A stretch of DNA of 64,000 nt from Rhizoclosmatium globosum (Eukaryota > Chytridiomycota > Chytridiomycetes > Chytridiales > Chytriomycetaceae): contig MCGO01000072.1 in assembly GCA_002104985.1 (NCBI GenBank), positions 148,204 through 212,203 of the forward strand, given 5' to 3'. The notes below the pieces were generated by a model. The model was given only the letters and a program-made list of their open reading frames with translations, searched no databases and had not been told where the DNA came from. Shown in pieces: positions 1,530 to 63,260 of this stretch; positions within the stretch are counted from its first letter, which is position 1, and the number at the start of each line of letters is the position of its first letter. Both the position numbers and the translations under genes were made by a program.

Positions 1530-2728
1530 AAGAATTGTCTCGTGGCAATTCTCTTCTTCAGTTTTGTAGTGTAACACAACCTCTTTTTTTTCTGATTGGA
1601 GAGGAAGGAAACCTATCCTTTTCATCTTTCTCTTCGGCTCTCGTCGAATAAAATACAACACCGTAATAGCTTGTGAATGTTTTTTGATTTGATGTTGATC
1701 GTGCTATTTGATGATCGAGATAACCCCTTAATAGTGAACGAGTGGCGTAACTGAAGGAAGAGCACATAAAGAAGAATATGAATTCTCCTTCAGGTTCCCC
1801 TTCAAATTACATCCAGTTGTATTGGGTGTCATTTACAGTCCTCCTTAACCATGGTCGAACACCTGTCTGCGTTATTCTAAGATTCTTTTGAATCTGGAGA
1901 AGCAAAAGGATCTAACAACGTGACCGTTCAGTTTCAATAAATGTAACTTGGTGATCGACTGCGGCGCTTTAATAATGTTCACAGCGTTGTCGCTGATCTC
2001 TGTATCTTTTGAACCTTCCGTATAATCTCTCTATTAATTGGCCTTACAAATACTTTTCATGTTGTTTGTCAGCAGTCACCATGAGGGACCCCATCTCTTC
2101 ATATCGATGCATGCAATCACCGAAACCGCAAAATATCAGCATTCCGAATTATGAAACAGTGAGCCGTGGCGCTAGAACGAAATTCGCCTAATGCGGAAAA
2201 TAAACTCAGGTTCGAAATCCAATATGAAGTACTGAAAGGGGGCTGAAGGGCATGCTTGTTATGCGTGCTTTTCGGAAATTTTCGGAATATTTTTAGAAAA
2301 AAATTTCATTGAGCTGTCTCCCTGTCAAAAATCGCTTTCTGCACTGTGTTCTAAAAAAGATCAACCACAAAAACGAGTAATATCTGTTAACATGGTTGAA
2401 GGTGAGAATGTGCTTTCACCTCGGCCAACTGCAATACCTTCCTACACTCGGATTCTATGGGGGGAAATCTTCTGGAAGTTTCAGATGAACGTTGAGCAAG
2501 TTCGACATCAACACTGGCGCCTCAACATCACCGTGAAACGAAGGGGAGCAGAAGTTGAAACCGGCCTTTTGCCTCAAACATACAGCAAATGCATTCAGCA
2601 GTTCACATTTGTCAGGCGATGCAGTTTCAGTTGGACCCCTCTTCACCCCCTATCCCCGTTCCAAAAATGGCCTGCATATTTCTTCCCCCTCCCCTCTTCG
2701 CCAAAAATATCATCCTGAAACTAACATC
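1530..2728. other. Intergenic region upstream of the H+-ATPase gene
   Basis: About 1.2 kb without a convincing gene. It should hold the 3' UTR of the NDUFA4-like gene and the promoter and leader of the proton pump. A C/T-rich stretch with CCCC and TTCC runs lies just before the pump start (about 2635-2705). Several short open frames are present, but none shows coding character or splice-linked extension. Confidence 0.5.
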
Positions 2729-5642
2729 ATGACTGAAGCTAAACACGAGGAGCTCAACTCCAACGGCAAGAAGCCATTGAAGATGGAGGAAGCCGTGCAC
2801 GTTGAAGTCGCCGATGATATTCCACCCGAGTTGGAGGCGCTCTTGCACGCCGAGCCATGTGTGGGTCTCTCTGACACTGAGGTTGCCGAGCGTACTGCCC
2901 AGTTTGGTTTGAACGAGATTCCAGAGACCAAGACCAACCCTCTCCTCAAGTTCTTGTCGTACTTCTTGGGTCCTATCTCGTACCTCTTGGAAATCGCCTG
3001 TATTCTGTCTGGTGTGTTCGAGGACTGGATTGACTTTGGAATCTTGCTTGCTGTGTTGATCATCAACGCTTGTATTGGTTTCTTTGAGGAGGCTCGTGCT
3101 GAGTCTGCCTTGGACGCTCTCAAGAACACTCTTGCCTTGAAGTCTCGTTGCTGGAGAAACGGAAAGCTTGTGGAGGTTGACTCCAACACTCTTGTTCCAG
3201 GAGATATTATTGCGCTTCGTCTTGGTGATATTATTCCAGCTGATTGTCGTCTTTTGGGTGTCGGTGTCCAGGGTGAAATCTCCGAGGGTACTCTCCAGAT
3301 TGACCAGTCTGCTCTTACCGGTGAATCCCTCCCTGTCCAGAAGGGTAAGGGTGCTACTGCCTACTCTTCCGCTATTGTCAAGCAAGGTCAGATGTTGGCT
3401 GTCGTTACCAAGACTGGTATCAACACTTTCATCGGTCGTGCTGCCAACTTGATCTCCATCACCACTGAGGAGGGTCACTTCCAAAAGATTATCAACTCCA
3501 TCGGTAACTTCTTGGTCATTATCACTTGTGTGAGTTTGCTCCGGAATTAGTGATCGTGATTACGTTGTATACTAATCGAATCCAATTTATTAGGGTATGG
3601 CTGTCGTTCTCTTCTTCGTTCGTACCTGGGCTGTCCCAGAAGACAAGGATGCTTCCACTGGTGACCGTGTTAAGGCTGCCCTCTTGGAAGTCTTGGTTTT
3701 GACCATCGCTGCTATTCCAGTCGGTCTCCCAACCATCATGTCCGTTACCATGGCTGTCGGAGCTTCCCAGCTCGCCAAGAAGGAGGTTATCGTCAAGCGT
3801 TTGACTGCCATCGAAGAGCTCGCTTCCGTCTCGATTCTCTGCTCTGACAAAACCGGTACTTTGACCCTCAACCAGCTTTCCTTCGACAAGCCATACCTCT
3901 CCAACAAAGGTAACACCACCGACGACTTCCACGGAACCGGAGTCCCATACACCGAGCAAGACCTCCTTTTGGCCTCTTTCTTCGCCTCTGAACCAGGAGC
4001 CCAAGACGCTATTGAATCTGCCATCCGTAAGGCCGCCCAGACCCGTGTCACCATCCTCAAGGAGCGTGAAAACCAGGACCACCACATCCCAGGCTACAAG
4101 GTCAACAACTTCATTCCATTCAACCCAACCTCCAAGTACACCGAAGCCACCGTCACCGACCTCTCCACCGGCAAGAAGTTCCGCACCATCAAGGGAGCCC
4201 CACAAGTCATTGTCCGCATGGTCGGAGGACACGATGAAGCCACCGCCGCCGTCAACGACTTTGCCCGCCGCGGTCTTCGTGCCCTCGGTGTCGCTCGCAC
4301 CGTCGACGACGCCATGACCAAATTCGAAATGATTGGAATGATCTCCTTGCTCGACCCACCCCGTCCAGACTCTGCCCACACCATCGAGGAATGCCACAAG
4401 CTCGGTATCTCTGTCAAGATGATCACTGGAGACCAACAGATTATCGGAAAGGAAGTTGCGCACCGTCTTGGTATGCACCGTACGATTTTGGATGCTTCCA
4501 AGTTGATGGATACTACGATTGATGAGGATGCTTTGATTGATCGATGCGTCAAGTGTGATGGTTTCGCTCAGGTTATTCCGGAACACAAGTACAAGGTTGT
4601 TGAGTTGCTCCAGAAGCGTGGTTACCTTGTTGGTATGACTGGTGACGGTGTGAACGATGCTCCAGCTTTGAAGAAGGCCAACGTCGGTATTGCCGTCGAG
4701 GGTTGTACTGATGCCGCCCGTTCTGCCGCTGATATCGTTTTGCTCGCTGCCGGTCTTTCTACTATTGTTGATGGAGTCAAGACTTCCCGTGCTATTTTCC
4801 AGAGAATGAGATCTTACGCCTTGTACCGTATCGCTTCTACCATTCACTTCTTGTTGTTCTTCTTCATCTCCATCTGTGCCTACGGTTTCTCTCTTCCACC
4901 AAGATTGATTATTTTGATTGCCGTGTTGAACGATGCTGCTACCCTCGTTATCTCTGTCGACAATGCCCAGATTTCCCAGCGTCCAGACAAGTGGAGACTC
5001 GGTCAGCTCATTACTCTCTCCTTCATTCTCGGTTTCTTGTTGATGATTATTTCTTGGGCCCACTTCTTTGTTGCTCACTACGGTGTCGGTTACACTCAGC
5101 ACTCTTACGACAAGTACCCTAACGAGGAGAACGCCGGTGTCCTCCAAACCATCATGTACCTCCAGATTTCATCTTGCCCACACTTTGTTATCTTCTCTAC
5201 TCGTCTCCCAGGTTACTTCTACGAAAACATGCCATCTTGGACTTTCATTATCGCTGTCGCTGGTACCCAAGTCTTTGCCATGTTCATGTCCATCTTTGGT
5301 ATCCGTGCTCTTGATGCTACTGCCATTGGATGGGGATGGGGTGTTGGAGTTCTTGCTGTTTCCACCGTCATGTTCATGTTGCTCGACATTGTCAAGGTCC
5401 AGATTATCCGCAAGTGGTCCTTCGATCTTACTGTCAAGTTGTACCCAACCAAGGCCAGAAAGGCTGAGTTGCAGACCCGTCTTGCCAAGCGTGCTCTCAA
5501 GGCTCGTGTTGATGCCAACATTATCAAGGCCCGTAAGGTTTACTACATGACCATGGCTGTTGTTGCCTGGAGAAAGGCTCTTTCTCAGAGCAAGAAGGCT
5601 GTCAAGGGAGCTGCTGGTTCCACTGCCGTTGGAATCAACTAA
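2729..5642 (+). CDS. PMA1: Plasma membrane H+-transporting P-type ATPase (P3A, Pma1 type)
   Basis: Two exons (2729-3529, 3594-5642), with an intron bearing GTGAGT, a TACTAAT branch site and TTAG, give 949 residues. The enzyme hydrolyses ATP to export protons and sets the plasma membrane potential (established). Visible motifs are the actuator TGES (about 197-200), the phosphorylated Asp in SDKTGT (D352), MITGD and TGDGVNDAP (about 617). There are hydrophobic segments for ten helices. Length fits fungal Pma1 (about 920-1000). The N-terminus is short and charged. The C-terminal tail after the last helix is basic (KARKAELQTRLAKRALKAR) and lacks an obvious Ser-Thr regulatory end like that of yeast. 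The coding sequence prefers C-ending codons (GTC, ACC, AAG), as expected for a highly expressed gene. The start at 2729 was chosen because earlier in-frame Met codons lie in a non-conserved, low-quality leader. Confidence 0.97.
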
Positions 5643-17411: not shown

Positions 17412-19841
17412 ATGATTTTGGGTAACTTGATCCTTGCTACGTCCGCCATGGCTGCGGCCAGAGTATCCACCTACTTTGATGCTTTGGTGATTGGAGACTG
17501 GGGAAGTGAGTATTACCTACTTGTTTGGGATCGTGATGGATTGATTAGTAGTGGGACTTGAGACTGATATCGTTCAATAAGACCCACAGGCTGCCTGGAC
17601 TGCCAACGTCTCTGCTGTTGCTTCTCAGATGAACACCTGGGCTGGAAAGAAGGGATCTGCTGTGAGTATTCATTTGAACTTTGACAAGTGTATTTGTGAT
17701 TATGCTCACAACTAACCAATCGCACCTTTGCATTCCAGGCCATTATCAATGTTGGAGACAACTTCTACGCCGGTGATGCCAACGGAAAGTACTCTAGCGA
17801 AGCTGTCAACTCGGCCACCGACTCAAAGTGGGTTGACATCTGGTCCAACGTCTACAACGGCGACAACATAAAGAACCTTCCTTGGTGGGGTGTTCTTGGA
17901 AACCACGATTGGTACTTGAAGAACTCATTCACGTACGAGTTGAACCACATTGACCCACACTGGGTTATCCCAGACTTGTTCTACACCAAGCGTGTCCAGG
18001 TTGATGCTGGAATCTACGCGACCTTCATCTTTATTGAGACCGACTTGATGCAATACGGTTACGGAGGTTCAACCAAGGCTGCTGCCAAGGGAATGCAGCC
18101 ATCTTTCGCTGCTCAAGGATGGACCAACGGAACCAACACTGTTGAGAAGCAGTTGGCTTGGATCGAGAACGCTGTCCAGGCTGCCAACAACGATGCTTAC
18201 ATCTTCATCATGGGTCACCACCCAATCTACACTTGTTACAAAAAGCCTTCTGACTGGAACAACGACCCAGCTGTTTTGTCTTCCCTCAAGTCTTTGCTCA
18301 CCATTGTCAACAAGTGGAACGTTTCTGCTTACTTCAACGGTCACCAGCACTGTGAGTCTTGGCACACATTTTATACGAATTCACGCTTAACTTAACTATT
18401 TGCATTCTTAGCTCTTGCTGGTTACGTCACCAACAACGGAAACACTTTGCAAATCCAGTCCGGATCTGGAGGTCAATTGGACGGTACCTGCACTGACACC
18501 TTCCCTGACACCAAGACCTACACTGTCGGTGGAGAGTACCTTACCCCAGGATTCGCCCACTTGTTTGTCAACAGCTCTATTGCCTCCGTTGATTTGATTG
18601 ACTTGAAGGGTTCCGTTATCGCCTCCTACTCTGTTGCCCCACGTGTCCCAGTCACTGGAGTTTCCGCTGATGCCACTTACTTGACTGCCGCCACTGACCC
18701 AGCTGTCCACTTCATCAAAGCTGCTGTTCCAGCTGAGGCTGGTTTGGACTTGCTCGTTATTGGAGACTGGGGTAACTACGCCAACATCAAGGACCAAAAG
18801 AAGGTTGCCGATGTCATGGACAAGTGGGCTGCTGCCTACGGATCCTCTGCCGTCCTCGCCCTTGGTGACAACTTCTACGCCACTGCTAACACTTCCTACA
18901 ACTACGAGGGAGTTAAGGAGGCTAACGACAAGAAGTTCGTTGACTTATGGTCCGCCGTCTACTCTGGAAAGGCTCTTTCTCAGCTTCCATGGTGGATGAT
19001 TCTTGGAAACCACGATTGGTACTTGAACAACTCCCAGATCTACCAGATGCAATACAACCACCCCAACTGGCAGATTCCAGACTTCTTCTACACCAAGCGC
19101 GTCCAAATCGACTCTGGAGTCTTTGCCTCCTTCATCTTTATCGAGACTGATTTGCTCAACTACGGTTGGAACTCTACCAAGAACGACCTTGGCCGTAACT
19201 TCAAGCTCCAAGGTTGGGACGCTACCACTGCCAAGAAGCAGCTCGCCTGGTTGGACTCTGCTCTTGCTGCCGCCAACAACGACCAATATGTCTTCGTCAT
19301 TGGACACCACACTGGATTCGCCTGTGGTAGTGATGTTTCTGGCTCCGTTAACATGGCTGATGTCACTGCCCTCGTCAACAAGTGGAACGCGACTGCCTAC
19401 GTCAACGGTCACCACCACACCTTCGCTTACTACTACACCAACAAGGGTAACACCCTCCAGGTTCAGACCGGAAACGGTGGTAACACCGACAGTGGATTGT
19501 GTGTCCCATCTTCCTCTGCCCCAGGACAAGAGCTTACCAACACTTACGGTTTCGCTCACTTGCGTATTACTGCTACCGCTGCTGCGTTCGATTTTGTCAC
19601 TGAGAACAACGAGGTTGCGTTCACTGCCTCTATTGGACAGAGAAAGCCTGCTAACGCTGTTGCCGACACAACCAACTTGCCACCAGCTGGAGACGTTTCC
19701 ATCCACTTTGTTGACCCTCTCAAGGCTACTGTATCTGCCACTGGAGGCTACGTTGCTCCACCAGCTTCAGCTTTGTACTCTGCCGCTGACAAGGTTGCTG
19801 CTTCCCTGGTTATTTCTGCCATTATTGCGTTGATGCTTTAA
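17412..19841 (+). CDS. Secreted, probably GPI-anchored tandem double-domain purple acid phosphatase (copy 1)
   Basis: Four exons (17412-17505, 17582-17661, 17739-18351, 18412-19841) give 738 residues. A signal peptide (MILGNLILATSAMAAA) leads two metallophosphoesterase domains (about 20-360 and 375-690). Each keeps all five metal-binding blocks of tartrate-resistant (purple) acid phosphatases. Domain 1 has GDWG (28-31), GDNFYAG, GNHDWY, GHHP and GHQH; domain 2 has GDWG (about 380), GDNFYAT, GNHDWY, GHHT and GHHH. These bind a dinuclear Fe/metal centre that cleaves phosphomonoesters (established). The C-terminus ends in a Ser/Ala-rich stretch and a hydrophobic tail (AASLVISAIIALML), typical of GPI anchoring. 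N-glycosylation sites are present. A paralogue with identical exon layout follows on the same strand. The role is probably external phosphate scavenging. Confidence 0.92.
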
Positions 19842-20345
19842 ATTTTGGTGTTGATACGTTGATTAGTTAGTTGTTCGTAATAAATAGAGATTGCATATAT
19901 TACAGCCTTTGTTTCGATTCGATTTATTTACAAGTAAATTGTGGTGTGTGTGAAAAGAGGCATATGCGCCATTAGGGTTTGATGACAATTACAAATGGCA
20001 GAGACTGCTGGAATCTCAATGACAGTTGAAATTATTATGTCGCTTGTAAGAAGTTTAGTCTATGGAATCATCTACCTGTCAAGACTTTGCCGGAGAGCAT
20101 TGAAGAATGTCAAGCAATCTGTCATTCACCGCCAAGTTTGACAGGTTGACAGTGAATGCTATGGAAAACAATTTGAAGGGATATCAAATTTATGGTATAT
20201 GAACTTCCTTGCTCACAAATCATTAAATTTTCGCCTTTTGGTAAGCCCTGATTAATATCCAAATTGGCACGCGCCGACCTTTTGCACCTTTCATGGAGAT
20301 GGTCCTGATAAAGTCGAAGCAACAGAAAACTGTCTGCCAAACACG
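19842..20345. other. Intergenic region between the two phosphatase genes
   Basis: About 500 bp. It holds the 3' flank of copy 1 (AATAAATAG at about 19880, a likely poly(A) signal) and the promoter of copy 2. A TTTGACAGGTTGACAG element lies at about 20137. No gene is seen. Confidence 0.5.
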
Positions 20346-22813
20346 ATGATCCTCGCGAACGTTTTGCTCCTCGCAGCTTCCGTCTTTGCTGCCGACGCTA
20401 GAATCTCAACATACTTTGATGCATTGATTATCGGAGATTGGGGAAGTGAGTACATGATACATTCATTTGCTTACCTCATCTCAAACCACTACTTCTACCA
20501 GACCCAGAGGCTGCCTTCCAGAAGGACATTGCTCAAGTTGCAGCGCAAATGAATACCTGGGCTGGATTGAAAGGATCTTCTGTAAGTGTTCAATCAGCCA
20601 CATTCTCATAGGTCACCTTCATCCCGTGGACCCGTTCCCTCCCATGAGCGTTTTTAATAACCCACGATCCTCCCACTTTAGGCGATTCTTAACCTCGGCG
20701 ACAACTTCTACGCTGGTGATGTTGGATCCAAGTACCCTTACCACGGAGTGAACTCAACGACCGACTCAAAGTTCGTCGATCTCTGGTCCAACGTTTACAA
20801 CGGTGATAACATCAAGAACCTTCCTTGGTGGACCATCTTGGGAAACCACGATTGGTACACCAAGAACTCGTACAGCTCTGAGCTCAACTTCAAGGACACT
20901 CACTGGGTCCAGCCAGACTTCTTCTACACCAAGCGTGTCCAGGTTGATGCTGGAGTATACGCTTCTTTCATCTTTATCGAGACGGACCTGTTTGTGTACG
21001 GATATGGAGGTCATACCAAGCCTGAGGCAAAGGGAATGGGACCTTCGTTCGTTCAACAGGGATGGGTTCCAGAAAAGAAGACTGCCGAGAAGCAGTTGGC
21101 CTGGATTGAGAACGCTATCCAGGCTGCCAACAATGATGCCTACATTTTCGTTTTGGGACACCACCCAGTCTTTACCTGTGCTTCCATCCCAGTTGACAAG
21201 GACAACGACCCAACTGTTCTTGGTTCTATTAAGGCTTTGAAGGCGATGGTTGACAAGTGGCAGGTATCCGCTTACTTCAACGGCCACCAGCACAGTTGAG
21301 TTCTTATCGCTCTGTAAATTGTCTGATAACACCAAAAAATTCCATAACAGCTCTTGCTTCATACATCACCAACAACGGAAAGACCCTCCAAGTTCAATCT
21401 GGTTCCGGAGGAAAGCTCGACGATATTTGTGCCAACTCAGGTTCCCGTAAGGCTGGAACTCCACCACCAGGTTCTTTCTCTTTCGGAAACGAGTTCCCAG
21501 TCACTGGTTTCGCTCACTTGTTTGTCAACAACACTATCGCAACTGTTGACTTGGTTGCTGGAAACGGAACTGTCTTGCAGACTGTCTCTGTGAAACCAAG
21601 AACCCCTGTTACTGGAATCAAAGCGGATTCTACCTTCTTGCCACCAGCTGACGACCCATCTGTCCACTTTGTTAAGCCTGCTGCTCCAGCCCAAGCCGGT
21701 TTGGATCTTCTTGTTATTGGTGACTGGGGTAACTATGCCAACTTGAAGGACCAAAAGAAGGTTGCCGATGTTATGGACATTTGGGCTAAGGAACAAGGTT
21801 CCACTGCCGTCTTGTCCCTTGGTGACAACTTCTACCAGACAAAGGGTACTCCATACGACTACGAGGGTGTTGCCGAACCCAACGACAAAAAGTTTGTCGA
21901 CTTGTGGTCTGCTGTTTACTCTGGAAAGTCTCTTGCTAAGCTGCCATGGTGGATGGTTCTCGGAAACCACGATTGGTACTTGAACAAGTCCCAGATCTAC
22001 CAGATGCAATACAACCACCCCAACTGGCAGATTCCAGACTTCTTCTACACCAAGCGCGTCCAAATCGATGCCGGAGTCTACGCGTCGTTCATCTTTGTCG
22101 AGACTGACTTATTGAACTACGGTTGGAACTCTACTAAGCAAGATCTTGGCCGTAACTTCAAGCTGCAGGGATGGGACGCTAACACTGCCAAGAAACAACT
22201 CGCTTGGTTGGACAACGCCTTGTCTCAAGCCAACAACGACCAATACGTTTTCGTCGTTGGACATCACACCGGGTTTGCTTGTGCTTGGGACGTTGACAAC
22301 TCTGTGAGCATGAAGGATGTTACCGCCCTTGTAAACAAATGGAACGCGACTGCTTACATTAATGGACACCACCACACCTTTGCTTACTACTACACCAACA
22401 AGGGTAACACCCTCCAAGTTCAGACTGGTAACGGTGGTAACATTGATAACGGATTGTGTGTTCCTTCCTCTGTTGCTCCTGGCCAAGAGCTTACCAACAC
22501 TTTTGGTTTCGCTCACTTGCGTATTACTGCTGCCGCTGCTGCTTTTGACTTTGTCACTGCCAACAACGAAGTCGCCTTCACTGCTTCCATTGGTCAAAGA
22601 AAACCAGCCAAGGCTGTTGCTGACACTACCAACTTGCCACCAGCTGGAGACGTTTCCATCCACTTTGTTGACCCCCTCAAGGCTACCACATCTGCACCTG
22701 TACCAGCTGCTACTGGAGGCTCCGTTGCTCCACCGGCTTCAGCTTTATACTCTGCGGCTGACAGGGTTGCTACCACCCTGCTCATTTCTGCCATCATTGC
22801 GTTGATGCTTTAA
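20346..22813 (+). CDS. Secreted, probably GPI-anchored tandem double-domain purple acid phosphatase (copy 2)
   Basis: Four exons (20346-20445, 20502-20581, 20682-21294, 21351-22813) give 751 residues. Exons 2 and 3 have exactly the lengths of those in copy 1 (80 and 613), so the pair arose by tandem duplication of an already fused gene. Both domains keep GDWG, GDNFY, GNHDWY, GHH and GHQH/GHHH. It has a signal peptide (MILANVLLLAASVFAADA) and the same type of hydrophobic GPI-like tail. The linker before the tail has a few extra Pro/Ala. Domain 1 carries a Cys near the fourth block (FTCASIP), as in copy 1 (YTCYKKP). Regulation is not visible, but the two genes have separate promoters and could respond differently. 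Confidence 0.92.
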
Positions 22814-53229: not shown

Positions 53230-54935
53230 ATGAATGGTCGTCCATCTACTGCAACCACTCAAACCACCCAAACCAAAGCAAGCGTAAGTAGTACTATGCA
53301 AGAGGTTCTTCAGTATCGTCCGCGTCTATTTATTCTCATGGCTGGGTTTATTTGTACATGTGCCGTCACCGTCGGTGTTCTTGCATGGTAATATTCCATC
53401 ATATTTTTACAAACATCAAGCAAAACACGATTAAACCTTTACAAATATCGAAAGGCAACTCACTATGGCAGCTGGAAAGTCCAACGTTGTTACCATGATT
53501 GAAGAGGTTGAGTTTCTGATCTCCAATCAAATTTCTTCTTTTCTCGTTACGTCCGCGCAATCTCTAGCAAATATTACGAATATCCAAGCCCAAATGTTTA
53601 CTGTTAAGTTGAATTTCCGGTTTATTTGTTTGAATAACGTTGCTTGTGCAGTCAAACGAATGGAGTTTTTCAACCCCTGAACAAACACAAGCAACTTTTG
53701 CAGCCATGTTTTCTGAGCTGAAAGGAATGACGCAGTTTACTACAAGCATGTATGTTATGACGTATCCCGAAGGACTTCAGCTTGGATACAGTTGCAACAG
53801 GGATAGCAAGGGAAAGACCACATATTACTGGGTATGCACTTTCTCTAACGCATTAAATCCCTATGTTGATCTAAAACCTGATTAATAGTGGAACCAAACC
53901 GGCTTCACACTTTCCACATACCTCTGCGACAATGCCGGACATCCTCTTGAACCGCCCCTTAAATCCAACACTGACAAGGGCGACGGAACCGCTTCCAACG
54001 CCGGAAACAACAACACCCTCTCAAACGGCGTCAACGGCTACCAAGGTGCAAACTTGAATTACTCCACAGCGCAATTTGCGTTTACAAACACATACCTCTA
54101 CGACTCTGTCGCCTATAAGTCCAGCTACGCCTTCGCCATAAACTCTGTCACGGGCGAGAAGGCGACTTTCGGGAACGACTGGACACTTGGATTTGTGTCC
54201 ACGCAAATAAACGAGATTCTGAAAGTATTCAAGTATCCTGTGTTTGCGGCTGCTGTGGAGTGTGGAACCGGGTATGTGCTTGGAACCTCGAGTACTGCGC
54301 AGTTGTTTAACGACACTGTTATTTATTCGGTGCGAGAGGTGGATGATCCATTTTTTAAGGATTTCACACGGCTTTTGGATGGGAGCTTTACTGGGGTTAA
54401 CGTTACTGTGCAGTTGGGAAGTGTTTCCAGTGTTGCAGAGGGTCAAGACAGATGGTTTTTGGATCGTAATATCGCTGGATCAAGATGGAAGCTTGGAATT
54501 AATGCGCATTTGTTTGCAGGGCGGAAGATCTTGCTTTTGGTGTATATGAATATTGAATCTGTTGAATCGCAAATGGATCGATTGTCCACAAAGACTGGGT
54601 ATATGATGCTGGGAATTATTGCTGCATTTGTGGCTTTGACAGTGCTATTTTCAATCGTGATTAGTAGACAGTTGCAGGTTGTGGTTCGACGTATTCAGTT
54701 ATTGAAAGATCTTAAAGTTAGTGAAATGGCTGAAGACGTGGATGGACATGCTTATTCCGTTGTATTCGAGCTGGCTGAGCTTCAGAAAGCGTTCAATAGC
54801 ATGACGGCAGTATTTACGGAATTTTTGAAGAAAAATGCTGCCATGACAAGAAAGGTTGTTATGCATTCGGAGGGAGTAGCACAAGAAGTCAAACCAAGCT
54901 CGAAGAAGATTGTTAAATCTACCGATACTGAATAA
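53230..54935 (+). CDS. Cache-sensor receptor-like membrane protein, array copy 1 (intact)
   Basis: Four exons (53230-53387, 53455-53602, 53652-53831, 53889-54935) give 510 residues. A short Ser/Thr-rich cytosolic N-terminus leads to helix 1 (LFILMAGFICTCAVTVGVLA, about 33-52). About 340 extracellular residues follow, with WSFSTPEQT, FTTSMYVMTYPEG, FGNDWTLGF and FAAAVECGTGYVLGTSS. The last two resemble the end of a double-Cache (PDC-type) ligand domain (inference). Helix 2 (YMMLGIIAAFVALTVLFSI) is followed by a HAMP-like segment (SRQLQVVVRRIQLLKDLKV) and a coiled coil (ELAELQKAFNSMTAVFTEFL). Proteins with this order usually continue into a cyclase or kinase; here the chain ends about 40 residues later. 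It could be a decoy, co-receptor or adaptor. It is the best-preserved member of a six-copy tandem array. Confidence 0.8.
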
Positions 54936-55068
54936 AGAGAGATTCTAGGACTTCAAAGAAGTAGGTCTGGATCCAAAGTTGACTTATCCATCGAAAATCT
55001 GCAAAGGCTTCCAAAATAATTTTGTTACACTGACAATTTCAAAACGGAAATCGCACTTGAACGAGAAT

Positions 55069-56878
55069 ATGGGGCCACGACGTCCATCTGCCGCGCCTTC
55101 GACCGCGTCTTCAACGATGACTGAAGTTTTGAAATACAGACCGAAGCTCTTCATGATTATGGCTATCTTTATTTGTGTCTGCGCTGTCACTGTTGGAGTT
55201 TTGGGATGGTAAGCCTTTAAAATGGCCGCTCTCCTGGCACCTAACAAGGCTAACTTGCAATCCAGGCAACTGACTATGACAGCAGGAAAGCAAAACGTTG
55301 GATCTCTTATTGAAGAGATTGAGTTTTTGGTCTCGACGCAAGTTTCGGCCTTCATCACAAACTCGGCACAGACTCTCGGTCAAATCACTGCTATACAGGA
55401 TAGTATGTTTACGGTAATGTTTTATTATTGTGATGCCTTCGATTTAAGTAGCGGTTGAAGAATGATGAGTGGAGTTTCTCAACCCCACAACGCGCTCAAA
55501 AGCCACATTTCGGGCTATGTTGTATGAGCTGAAGGGACTTAAGCAATTTACAACCAGTATGTACATGACTACTTATCCCGAAGGACTTCTCTTTGGATAC
55601 TACTATAAGGGCCTTTCAAATGGAACTATGCAACTGCGATGGGTACGTCCAAAATTCTAAGGTGATCACTGAATAGTCAAAAATCAGTGGAATCAAACAG
55701 GATTTTCGTTTTACACGTATCTTTGCGACGAGATCACCGGTGTTCCTTTTGGTTCACCCATTCAAGTTAGTTATGACCCTGGCAATGGTACACTGGCAAA
55801 TCCTGGTAACAACAATACACTCGCCACAGCAGTTGGTGGAATACAAGGTGCTAATTTGGAGTACGCCATTGGTCCAACCAAAGGGTTTTCACACATTTAC
55901 GTTTTTGAAGAAGGAGTCATGTACAAATCAAGCTACACATTTTCTATCAACAAAGTAACTGGTGAAACTGTTGTGTTTGGAAACGACTGGACCCTCGATT
56001 TTCTCTCAAAACAAATTAGAGATATTCTTACAGTTGTTTCATTTCCCATTTTCGCAGCTGTGATTGAATGCGAAACGGGACACGTTTTAGGCACATCGAG
56101 TCTACAGCCTTTGATGCTTAATCAAACTATGTTGAGCATTCAGGATATTAATGATCCTTTGTTTCGTGATTTCGCCAACTTCGCGAATTCAACTTTTTCT
56201 TATGGGCCCATTAATTCTTTACCGTCACAGTTGACGAACGTGGCTGTGTACGTGAACACATATTTTCCGTGAGTAGTTTTTGATGAAGGTGAACCATTTA
56301 TGCTTTAACATAGAGGGGCAGACGCATGGTTTGTAGACAGAAAGATTGGAAATACGCAATGGAAACTTGGAATCAACACCGAATTTCTACTGGGGAACAA
56401 CCTACTCTTTGTTGTTTACATGAATGTTGATGCAGTTGAAGAACAACTCAATCGCCTAGGCGCCCAAACAGGATATATGATGATCGGAATCATAGGATCA
56501 TTTGTGCTGATTGGAGTTCTTTTCTCCATCTTCATTTCTCGACAACTGCATATTGTTGTTGAGCAAATCAAACTTCTAAAGGATTTGAAGTTCCGAGACG
56601 TGCTTGGAACAGACGCGAAAGTGAAACAACGGTCATTTATTTACGAGCTTGCAGAACTTCAAAAGTGTTTTCACAGTATGGTGTTGGTCTTTTCGGAACT
56701 TCTTAAGAAGAATTCCATGATAACGGGTAACACTCGACCCAGTGAACGAATGTCTGGACATGGAGTAGCGAGGCCAGCGTCAATCGTGGCCTCTCCATTA
56801 AATGATTCGTCAGAAGGCAAAAAGACCGATGAAACTTCAGTTCGCGCTGCTGGTGCTGGAATTAGAACAGCAACTTAA
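55069..56878 (+). CDS. Cache-sensor receptor-like membrane protein, array copy 2 (intact only with a shifted splice)
   Basis: Using splice sites aligned with copy 1 (55413/55463), the frame breaks in a CGCTCAAAAGCC stretch and stops soon after. A perfect donor 11 bases earlier (ATA/GTATGT, exon end 55402) with acceptor GATGAG/TGG (exon start 55470) restores one frame. Exons 55069-55208, 55266-55402, 55470-55642, 55688-56268 and 56314-56878 then give 531 residues. The cost is loss of the conserved WSFSTP motif. It has an additional intron (56269-56313) absent from copy 1. Helices, Cache-like FGNDWTLDF, HAMP-like SRQLHIVVEQIKLLKDLKF and ELAELQKCFHSM are all present. The tail after the coiled coil is Ser/Thr/Gly-rich. 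Whether it is functional depends on which splice is used. Confidence 0.6.
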
Positions 56879-56991
56879 GTTTAAACTTTATAACAATTTT
56901 AATGCCGTTTTGTAGTATGTATTACCATTTAAAATCTCTATACCATAATTTTTTTTAAAGTATTAAATAATGAATGGAAATCTCTTAAAAA

Positions 56992-58827
56992 ATGGGTTTG
57001 GCACGTCGATCTTCTTTGGTCGGTTCTCAAACGTCTAGTACGATGTCGCAAGTTTTAAAATACAAGCCGCGTCTTTTTGCTCTAATGGCGGGGTTTATTT
57101 GCACTTGCGCTGTGACAGTTGGTGTACTTGGATGGTAAGTTCCGACGATCCGACTTAAACGTCGTATTAATTTGTGAAACAACGCAAGGCAACTCACAAT
57201 GTCAGCGGGAAAGCAAAACGTTGGAGCTTTGATTGAAGAGATTGAATTTCTTGTCTCCAATCAAGTTTCCAACTATATCCTACAATCCGCCGAAACTCTT
57301 CTGCTCATAAATGCAAAGCAGGCTGAGCTGTTTAGAGTAAATATTAGTGTGCTTCATTAGCTATTTGCCTAATCTTATCTAGACCAACAAATGGAGTTTC
57401 TCGACGCCAGAACGTGCTAAGTTGACGTTTGAAAGTCAACTAGTCGAGCTTAAAGGAGCTAGTCAATTTACAACTAGTATGTATGTAAATACTTATCCTG
57501 CTGGATACCAGGTTGGGTACAATTACGGACTTGACACAAACGGGAATCCTCAACTTCAATGGGTATATGTAACGCCATTATTCTTCATTATTTAATATTT
57601 TTTTGTAGTGGAATCAATCTGGAATGACAGCATACACATACCTTTGTGACTCCAATAGTACACCAATAGGATCACCGATTTCGGTTGACTTCAGTGCAGG
57701 AAATGGAACACTGGAAAACGCAGGCAATAATAACACATTGGCAAATGCAGTAGGTGGAATTACTGGAGTGAATCTTGAATATGCTCTCGGTGAAGACCAG
57801 GGTTTTACAAGCACCTACGTTTTTTCTGGTTCTGCTTTCAAAACTGCCTACTATTTCGTGACAAATCAAGTGACTGGTGAGCAAACTACGTTCGGAAATG
57901 ACTGGACATTGGACTTCATTTCAAATCAAATTCGGACAATCCTTAGTATCGTTTCGTTTCCAATCTTTGCTGCTGTGATTGAGTGTGACACAGGAACCGT
58001 GATTGGAACTTCAAGTCTGATTCCAACCGTACAAAATGATACTATTTTGAAAATTAACGAGATCAATGATCCGTTTTTTCAAGACTTTTCACAGTTTGTC
58101 AACACCACGAATCGATATGGACTGTTAATAACTTGCCTCCCCCTCCAGCTCTACATAATTGCTCTCATCTATATTGGAGAACACTTTCCCAGGGACGGCA
58201 AACTGGTTCGTCGAAAGGAAGATTGGCACAGCGAATTGGAAGTTGGGAATGAACGCTTACGTCTTAAATGGGAAGCAGCTGCTTTCATTGTTTACATGAA
58301 CATTGATTCTGTTGAGCAGCAGCTTAACAAATTGAGCGCTAAACAGGATATATGATGATTGGAATCATAGGCTCTTTCGTTGTCGTTGGAATACTGTTCG
58401 CAATTCTAATTTCACGGCAACTCTATGTTGTTGTCAAAACAAATCCAGCTGTTGAAAGATCTCAAATTTCGCGAAGTCCTAGGTGGATCAGCAGAGATTA
58501 AAAACCGCTCATTCATTTATGAGCTTGCAGAATTGCAAAAATGCTTCCACAGCATGGTTTTAGTCTTTTCTGACCTTCTAAAGAAAAATTCAACAACCAT
58601 CGACCCTCAACCACAGATGGAGGCCCCCACAAGGCTCTCCTACTCCAAACAATGCTTCTGGTAACAAGTTATTTGCTTCAAAAAAGCCATCAACAAAAAC
58701 TAGCGAAACTGCGAACTTTCAAACTCCATTACGTGGAATTCCCTCTGTTGCAAACAATGAAACTGACGAAATTCGTGTCGGGCGTCCAACGGTAGTAAAT
58801 GAAGATCAACAAAAAAAGAATTCTTAA
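56992..58827 (+). pseudogene. Cache-sensor receptor-like gene, array copy 3 (frameshifted)
   Basis: Exons 1-3 (56992-57134, 57189 to about 57336, about 57384-57560) and the first 500 bp of exon 4 are clean and match copy 1 in layout. After TTNRYG (about 58127) at least five single-base gains or losses follow (near 58127, 58200, 58285, 58345, 58436 and in the CCCCC run near 58625), several in homopolymers. Between them the protein sense is clear (NWFVERKIGTANWKLGMN, ELAELQKCFHSM). The original stop was probably the TAA at 58825-58827. Without its frameshifts it would be a full receptor-like protein; as it stands it cannot make the second helix in frame. Confidence 0.7.
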
Positions 58828-58968
58828 GCATAATCCGAAAAATTGAAAGTTTCTTCTTGTCCGTATTATTTTTTATTCCGTTCATTAATTCATCAGGCCC
58901 TAATCCTTTTCTTAACCTATATATTATCTACATTTTTCCTTTCCTCTTTTCTTTCTGCAGTAAAAATT

Positions 58969-60627
58969 ATGAAAGCAAAGATTTACCTCAACGACCATCA
59001 CTGCTTGCACTCTTCCGACCGCGTCTGTTCGTTCTCACCGCCGCGTTTATATGCGCGTGTGCTGTCACTGTTGGGCTTTGGGATGGTAATCAAGGCTTCA
59101 GTTGTTATCCTTCTTGACTCTAAAATTACTCACAGGCAATTAACAATGGTCGCAGGGAAGCAAAAACGTCAGTTCTCTTATTCAAGAGATCGAATTCCTA
59201 GTTTCAAATCAGGTCTCTGAGTTTTTGATTAACTCGTCTCAAACCCTGTCAAGAATTACAAATGTACAAGCTGAAATGTTTAGGGTAATTCTTATAAAAA
59301 TGCTTTTAATAACTCTCCCTCATAAAACCCCTTTAATTTAGACAAACAAGTGGAGTTTTTCTACACCAGATAGAACAAGGCAGACATTTAACATGATGCT
59401 GACGGAACTTAAGAGTTCCAAACAATATACAACGTCTATGTATATAATGACTTATCCAGAAGGTCTTATGTTCGGCTATAATTATAATGTCGATTTAAAT
59501 GGAAACTTGAAATTACAATGGGTAAAACTGGCAAGATCTTGGCTGATTTAATAATTCTATTTCTAGTGGAACCAATCTGAAATGACGCTATATACATTTG
59601 AATGTGATCCCACAGGAACTCCAACGAGATTATTGGTGTCCAATACAGATGCTGGCAATGGAACAATTGCAAACCCCGGAAACAATAATACGCTTGGGAA
59701 CACTGTTGGGGGAAGCGTAGGAGTCGACTTGAACTACACCAAGATTCATTCGGATTCACTGATGTTTATGTGTGGGCAAACTCAAATATTTTCAAAAGTA
59801 GCTACTACTTTGTAACAAACCAAGTAACTGGCGAGAAGGTAACGTTCGGAAATGACTGGACACTTTCTTTCCTTTCGAACAAGATTCGGCAAATAATTAG
59901 CATCGTTTCCTTCCCAATCTTTGCGGCGGTGATTGAATGTAACACTGGTTATATTCTTGGAACATCAAGTTTTGCACCTCTTTTGCTTGATGATCAGCTT
60001 TTAACTCTCCCGCAAGTGAATGACGTGTATCTTCAAGATTTCTATGCAGTTGTTTCCTCTAAATTTGGCCCAGTGCAAAACTTGTCCCAGAGCCTGAACA
60101 ATGCTGCTCAATTTATACATGTGAATTTCCCAGGAACAGAAAACTGGTTTGTAGATCGGAAAATGGGAACTTCGAACTGGAAGGTTGGAGTTAATAGTTG
60201 TACCATTACCGGCAAACAGTTACTCTTTGTCATTTATATGAATGTGGATTCCGTTGAAGAACAGCTGAATAAGCTCAGTGTCATTACTGGCGATATCATG
60301 GCTGGAATCATAACAGTCTTTGTTTTGATTGGAATTGGTTTTGCTTTGGTAATTTCACGCCAATTACTCGCAGTAGTTACTCAAATCAAACTTGCACAAG
60401 ATCTTAAACTTGATGATATGTTAAACGAAGAACACGAACGGTATTCGTTTATTTTCGAGCTTGCAGAGTTACAGAAAGCATTCAATGGCATGATGTTTGT
60501 TTTCAAAGACTTTTTGAAAAGAAACCATCAAATGACTCGCCGAGTTGGTCCCGGTAACAGCGAAGCTGTGAAACCAAGTGATAACATAAATTTCGGCTCA
60601 AAGCCCACTAATAATTCCAGTAATTGA
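58969..60627 (+). pseudogene. Cache-sensor receptor-like gene, array copy 4 (frameshifted, 5' end eroded)
   Basis: The first exon has lost its in-frame Met and one base near its end (GGGCTTTGGGATGG versus GGAGTTTTGGGATGG). Exon 2 has an extra A in GGGAAGCAAAAACG. Another indel lies near 59750 in the Cache-like domain. The second half (59770-60627, 285 codons) is open and contains SSYYFVTNQVTGEKV, FGNDWTLSFLS, the second helix, the HAMP-like segment and the ELAELQKAF coiled coil. It closes at TGA. The surviving half could be translated, but without its N-terminal helix. Confidence 0.7.
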
Positions 60628-60779
60628 TTTTGTTTTGCCTTTTCTTTTTTTCTCAATAGAATTCATGTTGTTCATTGGAGTTTTCAAAAATGAAGGACGC
60701 GACTTGCGCAATTTATTTCGACAATACTAAACTGACAGTCCGAAGCAAGTTAACGTAAATCTCAGAGAAAGAGAATAAA

Positions 60780-60981
60780 ATGACGCCAAGACGTCCGTCG
60801 GCCACACCAACCCTAATCCATGATAAAGGGTAACACTCGACCAAGTGAACGAACGTCTGGACGCGTCGCAGTGAGACCTACGTCTGTCATGGCAACCCCA
60901 ATCAATGATTCGTCTGAGGGTAAAAAGACAGATGAAAGTTCAGCGCTTGCTGCTGGTGCTGACATTAGACCAGCAACCTAA
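60780..60981 (+). pseudogene. Cache-sensor receptor-like gene, array copy 5 (collapsed to both ends)
   Basis: A start like that of the other copies (ATGACGCCAAGACGTCCGTC, reading MTPRRPSATPT) is joined directly to the last part of a gene like copies 2 and 6. That part reads NTRPSERTSG, PINDSSEGKKTDES and ADIRPAT, then TAA at 60979. Everything between, about 1.6 kb of helices, sensor and HAMP-like region, is missing. The two pieces are not in the same frame. It is a clear internal-deletion relic. Confidence 0.75.
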
Positions 60982-61450
60982 AACCTTTGTACATTTTGTC
61001 ATCATGGTGCGCATTTATTTTTGCAGTATATATGTTACACATATAATTTTTAATCTCTTACAAAAACGGTTATAACTATCATTTGTTTACAAATGTCCGT
61101 ACAATATACATTTGTGTAAAGCTTTAATTGTAAGACTATCAATATTTCATTAAAATGCTTTGTACAACATTTAAATGAAGGTAAATTATTAACTTTTACA
61201 TATTAAACTGGAGGATAATCTCTTTCTATCGGCAACCTGGCATTTATAAATATAAAATGCAGCAGATAATTGGCATTTGTGATTGAATAAGTATTTTTGG
61301 AATGGATAGCAGTTACTCAGAACCTATTCTTTGGTGACAATGACTCCTAATGGAGAAAAATCGGAAGTACAGATTTGCAAATCCATTAGAATGGTTTCTT
61401 TGTTTCCTGGAACTTCTTTCTTGGCTGTAAATCGCAGAGAAAGAGAATAC
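60982..61450. other. AT-rich spacer between array copies 5 and 6
   Basis: About 470 bp, strongly AT-rich, with no gene. It holds the 3' flank of copy 5 and the promoter and leader of copy 6. Confidence 0.5.
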
Positions 61451-63260
61451 TATGAGCCGTCGACGTCCGTCAGCCACGCCTTCAACCACGTCTTCGACGA
61501 TGACTGAAGTCTTGAAGTACAGGCCCAAGCTATTTATGATTATGGCTGCCTTTATTTGTGTTTGCGCCGTCACAGTTGGAGTTTTGGGATGGTATATTCG
61601 CGTTTAAATTCATTCTTCAACAACTTAACAAGTTACGCTTAATGTAGGCAACTGACAATGGCTGCCGGAAAAGAAAACGTGGCTTCACTCATTGAAGAAA
61701 TTGAGTTCTTAGTTTCAACTCAGGTTTCCGTATTCATCAGCAATTCGGCACAGACACTTGGCCATATTACTTCCATCCAGGATAGCATGTTTACGGTAAG
61801 AACTTTAAGAAAAATATTTTTCCTTATTTAGTATTTAGACTGATGTATGGAGTTTTGCAACTCCAGAGCGTACTCAAGCCACTTTCAGGGCTATGTTGTA
61901 CGAGCTGAAGGGACTAAAGCAATTTACAACCAGTATGTATATGTCGACTTACCCTGAAGGACTTCAGTTTGGATACAATTATAAGATTGCCTCAAATGGA
62001 AGTGAGCAGCTCCAATGGGTAAATTTAACACAAACCAAACAATACATTTATTTAAATTATTTATTTTTAGTGGAATCAAACTGGGCTGACATTCTACACT
62101 TACCTTTGCGACGAGAAAACAGGAGTTCCATACGGCTCGCCGATTCGAGTTAACTACGATCCGGGCAATGGAACGCTGGAAAATCCTGGTAACAACAACA
62201 CACTTGCCACTGCAGTTGGTGGAACACAAGGGGCGGACTTAGAGTATGCCATTGGTCCAACATCCGGGTTTTCGAACATCTACGCATTTGACGGAGCCAT
62301 GTTTAAATCAAGCTACACTTTTTCTATCAACAATGGGACTGGCGAAAAGGTGGTTTTTGGGAACGACTGGACCCTCGAGTTTCTCTCGAAACAAATCAGA
62401 GATATCTTAAAGTTGTTTCGTTTCCTATTTTCGCTGCTGTGATTGAATGCGAAACGGGACACGTCTTGGAACGTCAAGTCTTCAGCCTTTAATTGTGAAC
62501 CAAACCATTCTAAGTATTCAGTATATTAACGACCCTCTGTTCCATGATTTTGCCGACTTTGCGAATTCAACGTTTTCATATGGGCCGATCGATTCTTTGC
62601 CGTCACAGTTGACGAACATGGCTGTGTATGAAGACACCTACTTTCCGTGAGTTTAACGTCTTTTCAATCAATAGGTGATTCAAATTCTTTACATAGAGGG
62701 GAATCCATCTGGTTTGTGGATAGAAAGATTGGAAATACGCAGTGGAAATTATCATCAATGCACAGTACCTTCTTGGCAACAATCTTCTTTTTGTTGTGTA
62801 CATGAACGTTGATGCGGTTGAAGAACAGCTAAATCGCTTAGGTGCCCAAACTGGATACATGATGATAGGAATTATTGGATCCTTTGTGTTGATTGGTATT
62901 CTCTTCTCAATCTTTGTATCACGACAACTGCATATTGTCGTTGAACAAATCAAGCTTCTTAAAGATTTGAAATTCCGTGATGTGCTTGGAACAGATGCTG
63001 GAGTGAAGAATCGGTCCTTCATTTACGAGCTTGCAGAACTTCAGAAGTGTTTCCACAGCATGGTTGTGGTCTTTTCTGATCTTCTCAAAAAGAATGCCAT
63101 GATTACGGGAACTACGCGAGCTAGTGAGCGTACCTCCGGACACGCTGGAGTCAGACCTGCGTCAGTCGTAACTGCACCAGCATCCGATTTTCTGGAGGGT
63201 AAAAAAACAGATGAAGCCCCAATTCGTCCAGCTGGCGCTGGAATTAGAACAGCCCTTTGA
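61451..63260 (+). pseudogene. Cache-sensor receptor-like gene, array copy 6 (frameshifted)
   Basis: Closest to copy 2: it begins MSRRRPSATPSTTSSTM and shares an intron near 62648-62696. Exons 1-3 are clean and the third exon starts ACTGATGTATGGAG in frame, so the WSF motif is kept. In the large exon one base is missing near 62412 (ATCTTAAAGTTG), one near 62470 (TCTTGGAACG), and further bases near 62750 (TGGAAATTATCATC). The last 172 codons (62742-63260) are open and carry helix 2, SRQLHIVVEQIKLLKDLKF, ELAELQKCFHSM and the Ser/Ala-rich tail. As read, it cannot yield the full protein. Confidence 0.65.

Follow-up and report, generated by a model that had tools for sequence, protein, structure and literature searches.

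A 64,000-nucleotide stretch of the genome of the chytrid Rhizoclosmatium globosum (hereafter the window; bases 148204-212203 of contig C391, in a genome of 56.9 Mb on 420 contigs) carries a tandem array of genes for putative two-pass membrane sensors, which comprises five near full-length genes and one deletion relic at positions 53230-63260 of the window, on the plus strand. All five copies share the order of parts described in the original prediction: a first transmembrane helix (TM1), an outer sensor-like domain of about 340 residues, a second transmembrane helix (TM2), a HAMP-like segment and a short variable tail, after which the frame stops. The outer boundaries given there also agree with the gene models, as they coincide with the first ATG and the last stop of the array. 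The model of copy 1, with three short GT-AG introns, was built by hand and served as the query for spliced alignment of the other copies.

53230..54935, plus strand: copy 1, intact, 510 residues, introns at 53388-53454, 53603-53651 and 53832-53888
Parts of copy 1: TM1 at about residues 29-56, sensor 57-398, TM2 399-425, HAMP-like segment 426-478, tail 479-510
54597..54836, plus strand: TM2 and HAMP-like segment of copy 1 (residues 399-478), containing the ELAELQKAFNSM motif
55069..56878, plus strand: copy 2, one frameshift near 55498-55500 (a 2-bp insertion)
56992..58827, plus strand: copy 3, four frameshifts and one stop in the window contig
58969..60627, plus strand: copy 4, three frameshifts in the window contig, start codon picked by eye
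60780..60981, plus strand: deletion relic of 202 bp, copy-5-like first codons fused to a copy-2-like 3' end, not a gene
61452..63260, plus strand: copy 5, three frameshifts in the window contig, nearest relative copy 2

Gene models and integrity of the array

An earlier count of six related genes had to be given up, since spliced alignment yields five and the sixth item is the relic, whose tail matches the copy-2 end on contig C397 at 96.4% and window copy 2 at 80%. The next start follows copies 1, 2 and 3 after 133, 113 and 141 bp, respectively, while copy 4 is followed by the relic after 152 bp and by copy 5 after 824 bp. Hidden downstream exons were considered and rejected on the spacing of 113-141 bp after copies 1-3; intact frames and tight spacing together leave no space for them. 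The array genes encode complete proteins, not truncated ones. Copy 3 has an intact counterpart on contig C363, the database protein P0002 (561 residues). The deposited copy 1 protein, P0026, does not include the TM1 segment, so that annotation pipelines would take copy 1 for a protein with one transmembrane helix.

Only copy 1 is intact in C391; spliced alignment places 1, 4, 3 and 3 frameshifts in copies 2, 3, 4 and 5. On C363 (304856-314892), all five array genes are present with no frameshift, and base-by-base alignment, in which the contigs are almost identical across most of the array, shows that 10 of the 11 frameshifts are private to C391, mostly as one-base indels. The ends of copies 3 and 4 contain three more private indels, each of one base. 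Frameshift-free counterparts exist for copy 4 on C363 and C178 and for copy 5 on C178, C363 and C397; C178 itself is frameshifted in copies 2 and 3. Because the shifts are private to C391 and the C363 copies are intact, most of them look like assembly errors when the contig sequences are compared. The 2-bp insertion in copy 2, also present in C178 and missing from C363 and C397, is possibly a true allele. Indels present in C391 alone, most of them of one base, cluster at positions 58118-59740 of the window, probably a poorly polished part of the assembly. The stretch fetched from C397 has three genes only, equivalent to copies 1, 2 and 5, which together with the 96.4% match of the relic indicates that array size differs between contigs, a difference that probably arose by unequal exchange.

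Early stop, conservation and distribution

Two transmembrane helices are detected by hydropathy scan in all 16 proteins analysed (a third, weaker peak appears in five), and the outer domain has the size of a double Cache domain, which spans about 250-350 residues between two transmembrane helices. All six sequons of copy 1 are in the outer part, and its HAMP-like segment follows directly after TM2. The motif ELAELQK.F, previously taken as the end of a coiled coil, belongs to helix two of the HAMP-like segment and does not close a separate coiled coil. From the ELAELQxxFxxM-type motif to the stop there are 43, 65, 90, 44 and 65 residues in copies 1-5. Among 40 models from 20 genome stretches, this motif is present in 36, whose frames end 18-200 residues behind it (no more than 68 residues in 30 of them); the early stop and the missing output domain of the original prediction are supported, whereas its range of about 40-60 residues was too narrow. 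The 200-residue tail belongs to C1:780k, whose deposited model P0003 (544 residues) has another end, and it matches no Pfam family. The four models without the motif comprise one spurious low-score model, two cut by stretch ends and one on C46 (L022 from 4742; C46:608.7 kb) that continues for 422 residues into a Cupin_8/JmjC open reading frame (ORF); as a related gene of the C8 array stops after 23 residues, the C46 frame is probably a run-on into the neighbouring gene. No cyclase or kinase was seen behind the sensor in any of the 40 models, Pfam scans having covered sets of 4, 10 and 33 proteins as well as two tails, and no relative among the database matches listed carries a precomputed Pfam domain. 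Two long relatives, P0008 and P0020, were considered as output-bearing candidates and rejected, their extra parts being N-terminal and weakly Glyco_hydro_26-like or unmatched.

Conservation is highest in the membrane helices and the HAMP-like segment. The column-identity set was built from 32 sequences (frameshifted, partial and stop-bearing models having been dropped), from which eight allelic or near-identical rows were removed. In the remaining 24 sequences, mean column identity is highest in TM1 (0.608), followed by the HAMP-like segment (0.567) and TM2 (0.540), and lowest in the tail (0.146). No sensor stretch of equal length reaches the identity of TM1 (0 of 315), TM2 (0 of 316) or the HAMP-like segment (0 of 290), while the connector does not stand out, its identity being reached by 56 of 330 stretches. 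The ratio of non-synonymous to synonymous differences (pN/pS) between contigs, computed from pairs that share sequences and are not independent, is 0.02 in TM2, 0.06 in HAMP, 0.08 in TM1, 0.17 in the sensor and 0.20 in the tail, and sensor and TM2 plus HAMP differ in four C363/C397 pairs (Fisher p 0.0017). Copies 2 and 5 show a dN/dS (the corresponding ratio of substitution rates) of 0.08. The family is under purifying selection. Nitrate-sensor kinases show the reverse pattern, as their transmembrane helices are less conserved than the whole protein according to a passage of PMC8199190, whereas those of the chytrid family are among its most conserved parts.

The family is large and appears to be confined to one order. 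Above chance, 76 exon-level matches were found on 27 contigs of the genome, and 32 database proteins match the family profile at E<=1e-3. They come from Rhizoclosmatium, Siphonaria, Podochytrium, Obelidium and Physocladia, with one distant protein from Irineochytrium, all of them Chytridiales, and near full-length relatives exist in other genera. The protein database search, in which the best approximately 8,000 candidates were scored per query with word-based sensitivity, revealed no member outside Chytridiales. Within open-licence PMC, no paper on this design was found, nor one combining Chytridiomycota, HAMP and Cache, and the portions seen of the eLife chytrid atlas (PMC8887899) contain no passage on receptors or cyclases. 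Elsewhere in the window, as judged by eye, two tandem long ORFs at 18396-22813 resemble secreted metallophosphatases, and ORFs at 2537-5642 resemble a P-type proton ATPase.

Cache-like and HAMP-like identity

The names Cache and HAMP, which the original prediction had given by resemblance, draw no support from Pfam in the family itself and gain it by way of a sister family. There is good but indirect support for calling the parts Cache-like and HAMP-like, because of the profile match to this sister family and a repeat in the second helix. The sister family, which has the same plan, is found on C224, C382 and C13 (L059, L062 and L063) and first surfaced as a weak match of the window-family HAMP piece (E 0.0045); in the reverse search, the sister HAMP piece matched dozens of window-family places, with a best E of 2e-5. 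Alignment by hhalign of the window-family profile (A2) with that of the sister family (A3, of three rows only, two with X at frameshifts) gives a probability of 97.9% and an E of 3.1e-13 over columns 263-486, which span the membrane-proximal half of the sensor, TM2 and HAMP. In the sister family, ORF L059 matches dCache_1 (0.0012) and HAMP (0.044), both under the curated cut-offs, with HAMP scores in the family of 14.2-14.5 bits against a cut-off of 25; L059 also aligns over TM2-HAMP to the NCBIfam models CztS (to position 238 of 457) and CpxA (to position 246 of 463). A further relative, L061, exceeds the cut-off of MCP-like_PDC_1 (30.7 against 27 bits). A weak Flo11 match of a sister-family ORF was recorded as well (0.048 in Pfam, 0.34 in the PDB). 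The second HAMP-like helix of the window family has a strong 3.5-residue repeat, reached by 12 of 10,000 shuffles, and UniProt names one member, P0027, Cache domain-containing.

Direct matches of the window family are few. Unrelated models, for example DUF5344 (0.0013), account for its top Pfam scores among the matches listed for 33 members (scan at E<=10, 25 of 29 families listed, any unlisted family concerning one member at most, with E above about 0.4). The NCBIfam scan gave weak or no matches, and no relative was found among PDB sequences. In the genome, Pfam HAMP (PF00672) has no match at E<=0.001 and CHASE none at E<=0.1. Current Cache models were built from prokaryotic sequences with an output domain, eukaryotic ones being discarded, as an extract of PMC4822843 states, and an output-less eukaryotic design therefore lay outside their training set.

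The closest bacterial parallels are dCache-HAMP chemoreceptors and kinases (MCP, CztS and CpxA), which resemble the sister ORF L059 over TM2-HAMP and the relative L061 in its MCP-like PDC part. However, the analysis found neither an MCP or kinase domain nor a GGDEF or cyclase domain, and the window family itself matches none of these models. Fungal group VI Sln1-type osmosensing histidine kinases likewise have two transmembrane helices around a Cache outer loop of about 300 residues (PMC4822843 and PMC6944256, each seen in part); they are kinases, whereas no kinase follows in the chytrid family. The Cache-type loci L060, L061, L064 and L065 and the sister loci, some of them paired, also seem to end soon after the HAMP-like helix; these ends were read from ORFs as rough models, some frameshifted, and are known with less certainty than the array ends. 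By the reading frames of these loci, Cache proteins in this genome may habitually lack an output domain.

Proposed signalling in trans and competing explanations

The original prediction had assumed decoys or partners that dimerise with a full-length receptor cyclase. Genome searches relied on six-frame, single-sequence queries of a possibly incomplete assembly, in which a distant partner could escape, and within this scope no full-length receptor cyclase or kinase sharing the sensor, the transmembrane pair or the HAMP segment was found. By exon, the genome yields 52 cyclase (PF00211) and 21 HATPase matches, together with at least 121 protein-kinase matches at E<=1e-20 (best 121 of 941 candidates scored). 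The family HAMP profile matches none of 30 cyclase-match loci (with 1.5-kb flanks; several loci come from one gene), and in the same loci the sensor profile gives non-significant matches only (E 0.03 or worse). All 98 matches of the TM1 piece fall on contigs already known to carry the family; the window-family HAMP piece has 65 matches, with C224 and C382 as the only new contigs, and the sister HAMP piece has 72, adding ten contigs, of which eight were read or have a dCache_1 match and two, C270 and C282, were left out. None of the sensor, HAMP-piece and TM1-piece searches led to a place tied to a cyclase or kinase. Among the places compared (63 of 76 family, 33 other Cache, 29 of 52 cyclase, 20 of 21 HATPase and 34 of 121 kinase places, the last picked by eye, mainly on shared contigs), the nearest cyclase match is 163 kb from the window family and 59 kb from the other Cache loci, and neither family has a HATPase match on any of its contigs. 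Two clusters of guanylate-cyclase-domain matches, at C124:34000-40000 and 152000-166000, are possible effectors; cyclase loci were read by ORF, and minus-strand loci are poorly resolved.

On these data, the explanation given slightly better than even chances is that the array proteins are dimeric two-pass sensor subunits whose output is delivered in trans by a separate protein, a model that retains the proposed pairing in trans and drops the decoy and receptor-cyclase half. The family would form a large, chytrid-restricted set of sensors, double-Cache-like on the outside and with a HAMP-like four-helix unit in the cytoplasm, located in the plasma membrane and acting as dimers. A ligand outside the cell would displace TM1 relative to TM2, the HAMP-like bundle would then switch state, and a separate membrane or membrane-attached effector, touching the conserved transmembrane and HAMP part, would read this change in trans, so that many sensors with differing outer domains could feed one shared effector. 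Signal relay to a common partner would need conserved transmembrane and HAMP segments, while a mere ligand sink would not. A precedent for heterodimer signalling exists in the same species, where the rhodopsin guanylyl cyclases RGC1/2 function solely as heterodimers with NeoR, so that sensory proteins of the zoospore depend on a second subunit (PMC7655827 and PMC12264004, in the parts available); both of those subunits, however, carry cyclase domains and rhodopsin sensors, unlike the family studied here, whose HAMP profile matches none of the 30 cyclase-match loci.

Several results weigh against such a sensor subunit. Pfam Cache and HAMP models give no match in the family scans (4, 10 and 33 proteins, with 25 of 29 families listed for the 33), and no significant repeat is seen in the first HAMP-like helix (2258 of 10,000 shuffles) or over the whole stretch after TM2 (924 of 10,000). 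The small hydrophobic alphabet inflates the identity of the transmembrane helices, and the lower pN/pS of HAMP derives in part from more synonymous differences (pS 0.19 against 0.10 in the sensor). In addition, the genome searches found no effector or partner.

Among the alternatives, two are about equally unlikely. In the first, the proteins would be auxiliary subunits of ion channels, comparable to the Cache-bearing alpha2-delta subunits of animal calcium channels, to which metazoan Cache domains are mostly confined according to part of PMC4822843, and their conserved membrane helices would bind the channel. The rank of TM1 as the most conserved segment is compatible with such binding, but the heptad-bearing HAMP helix suggests signal relay, and no VWA domain was found in the 33 members among the matches listed (25 of 29 families). 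Alpha2-delta proteins are not known to have a HAMP, which also counts against this explanation. In the second, a cyclase-less receptor would couple to G proteins or clear ligand through its short cytoplasmic part, as in NPR-C, which lacks the catalytic domain of its family, has a 37-residue tail and activates Gi (PMC3268021, in part). Many family tails are of comparable length; however, NPR-C is an animal protein with one transmembrane helix, known full-length relatives and a functional tail motif, none of which was found for the chytrid family. Pure clearance would leave the conserved transmembrane helices and HAMP unexplained, and the poor conservation of the tail, the lowest of all parts, makes it unlikely to carry a specific G-protein motif.

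Only slightly less probable is a different outer fold joined to a plain coiled coil, in which case the products would be surface or adhesion proteins rather than sensors. The lack of any Pfam match over cut-off and of a PDB sequence relative, the best Pfam scores to unrelated models and the weak Flo11 match of the sister ORF would all suit such proteins. On the other side stand the profile match to a sister family that has weak dCache_1 and HAMP matches in the right places, the NCBIfam sensor-kinase models spanning the sister TM2-HAMP and the MCP-like_PDC_1 match of L061 over its cut-off.

Decoy or dominant-negative receptors, which would pair with and damp full-length receptor cyclases or kinases of the same sensor or HAMP, are still more improbable. 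A conserved HAMP-like segment could in principle pair, and a catalytically inactive Cache diguanylate cyclase is dominant-negative in Pseudomonas fluorescens, as excerpts of PMC6050961 report. The same source describes LapD/GcbC, where a Cache/HAMP signal is likewise handed between two membrane proteins; this system is bacterial, and its two partners touch through the GGDEF or EAL domains that each of them carries. The decoy model is disfavoured because the genome searches found no cyclase or kinase fused to the sensor, the transmembrane pair or HAMP, the nearest cyclase match among the places compared lies at least 59 kb off, and dozens of decoys beside no visible receptor would be an odd economy. 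Finally, decay of genes that once encoded receptor kinases or cyclases is largely refuted and very improbable: frameshifts in four of the five window copies, some also in models on other contigs, the deletion relic and the variable array size point that way, but decay of the array was rejected in view of 10 of 11 frameshifts in one contig only, frameshift-free C363 counterparts of all five copies, purifying selection (pN/pS 0.02-0.20, dN/dS 0.08) and near full-length relatives in other genera.

Zoospores of R. globosum JEL800 swim toward N-acetylglucosamine, and the mechanisms of chemotaxis in aquatic chytrids are called poorly understood in a passage of PMC12115818. It is tentatively suggested, with considerable doubt, that zoospore chemosensing may rely on dozens of output-less Cache-HAMP subunits, diversified in tandem and docking by their membrane helices onto one or a few effectors. 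If true, this would represent chemoreception with interchangeable sensors, distinct from both G-protein-coupled receptors and one-piece receptor enzymes. The family provides a concrete candidate receptor set in R. globosum, and the identity of its partner would reveal how a eukaryote reads a HAMP signal in trans.

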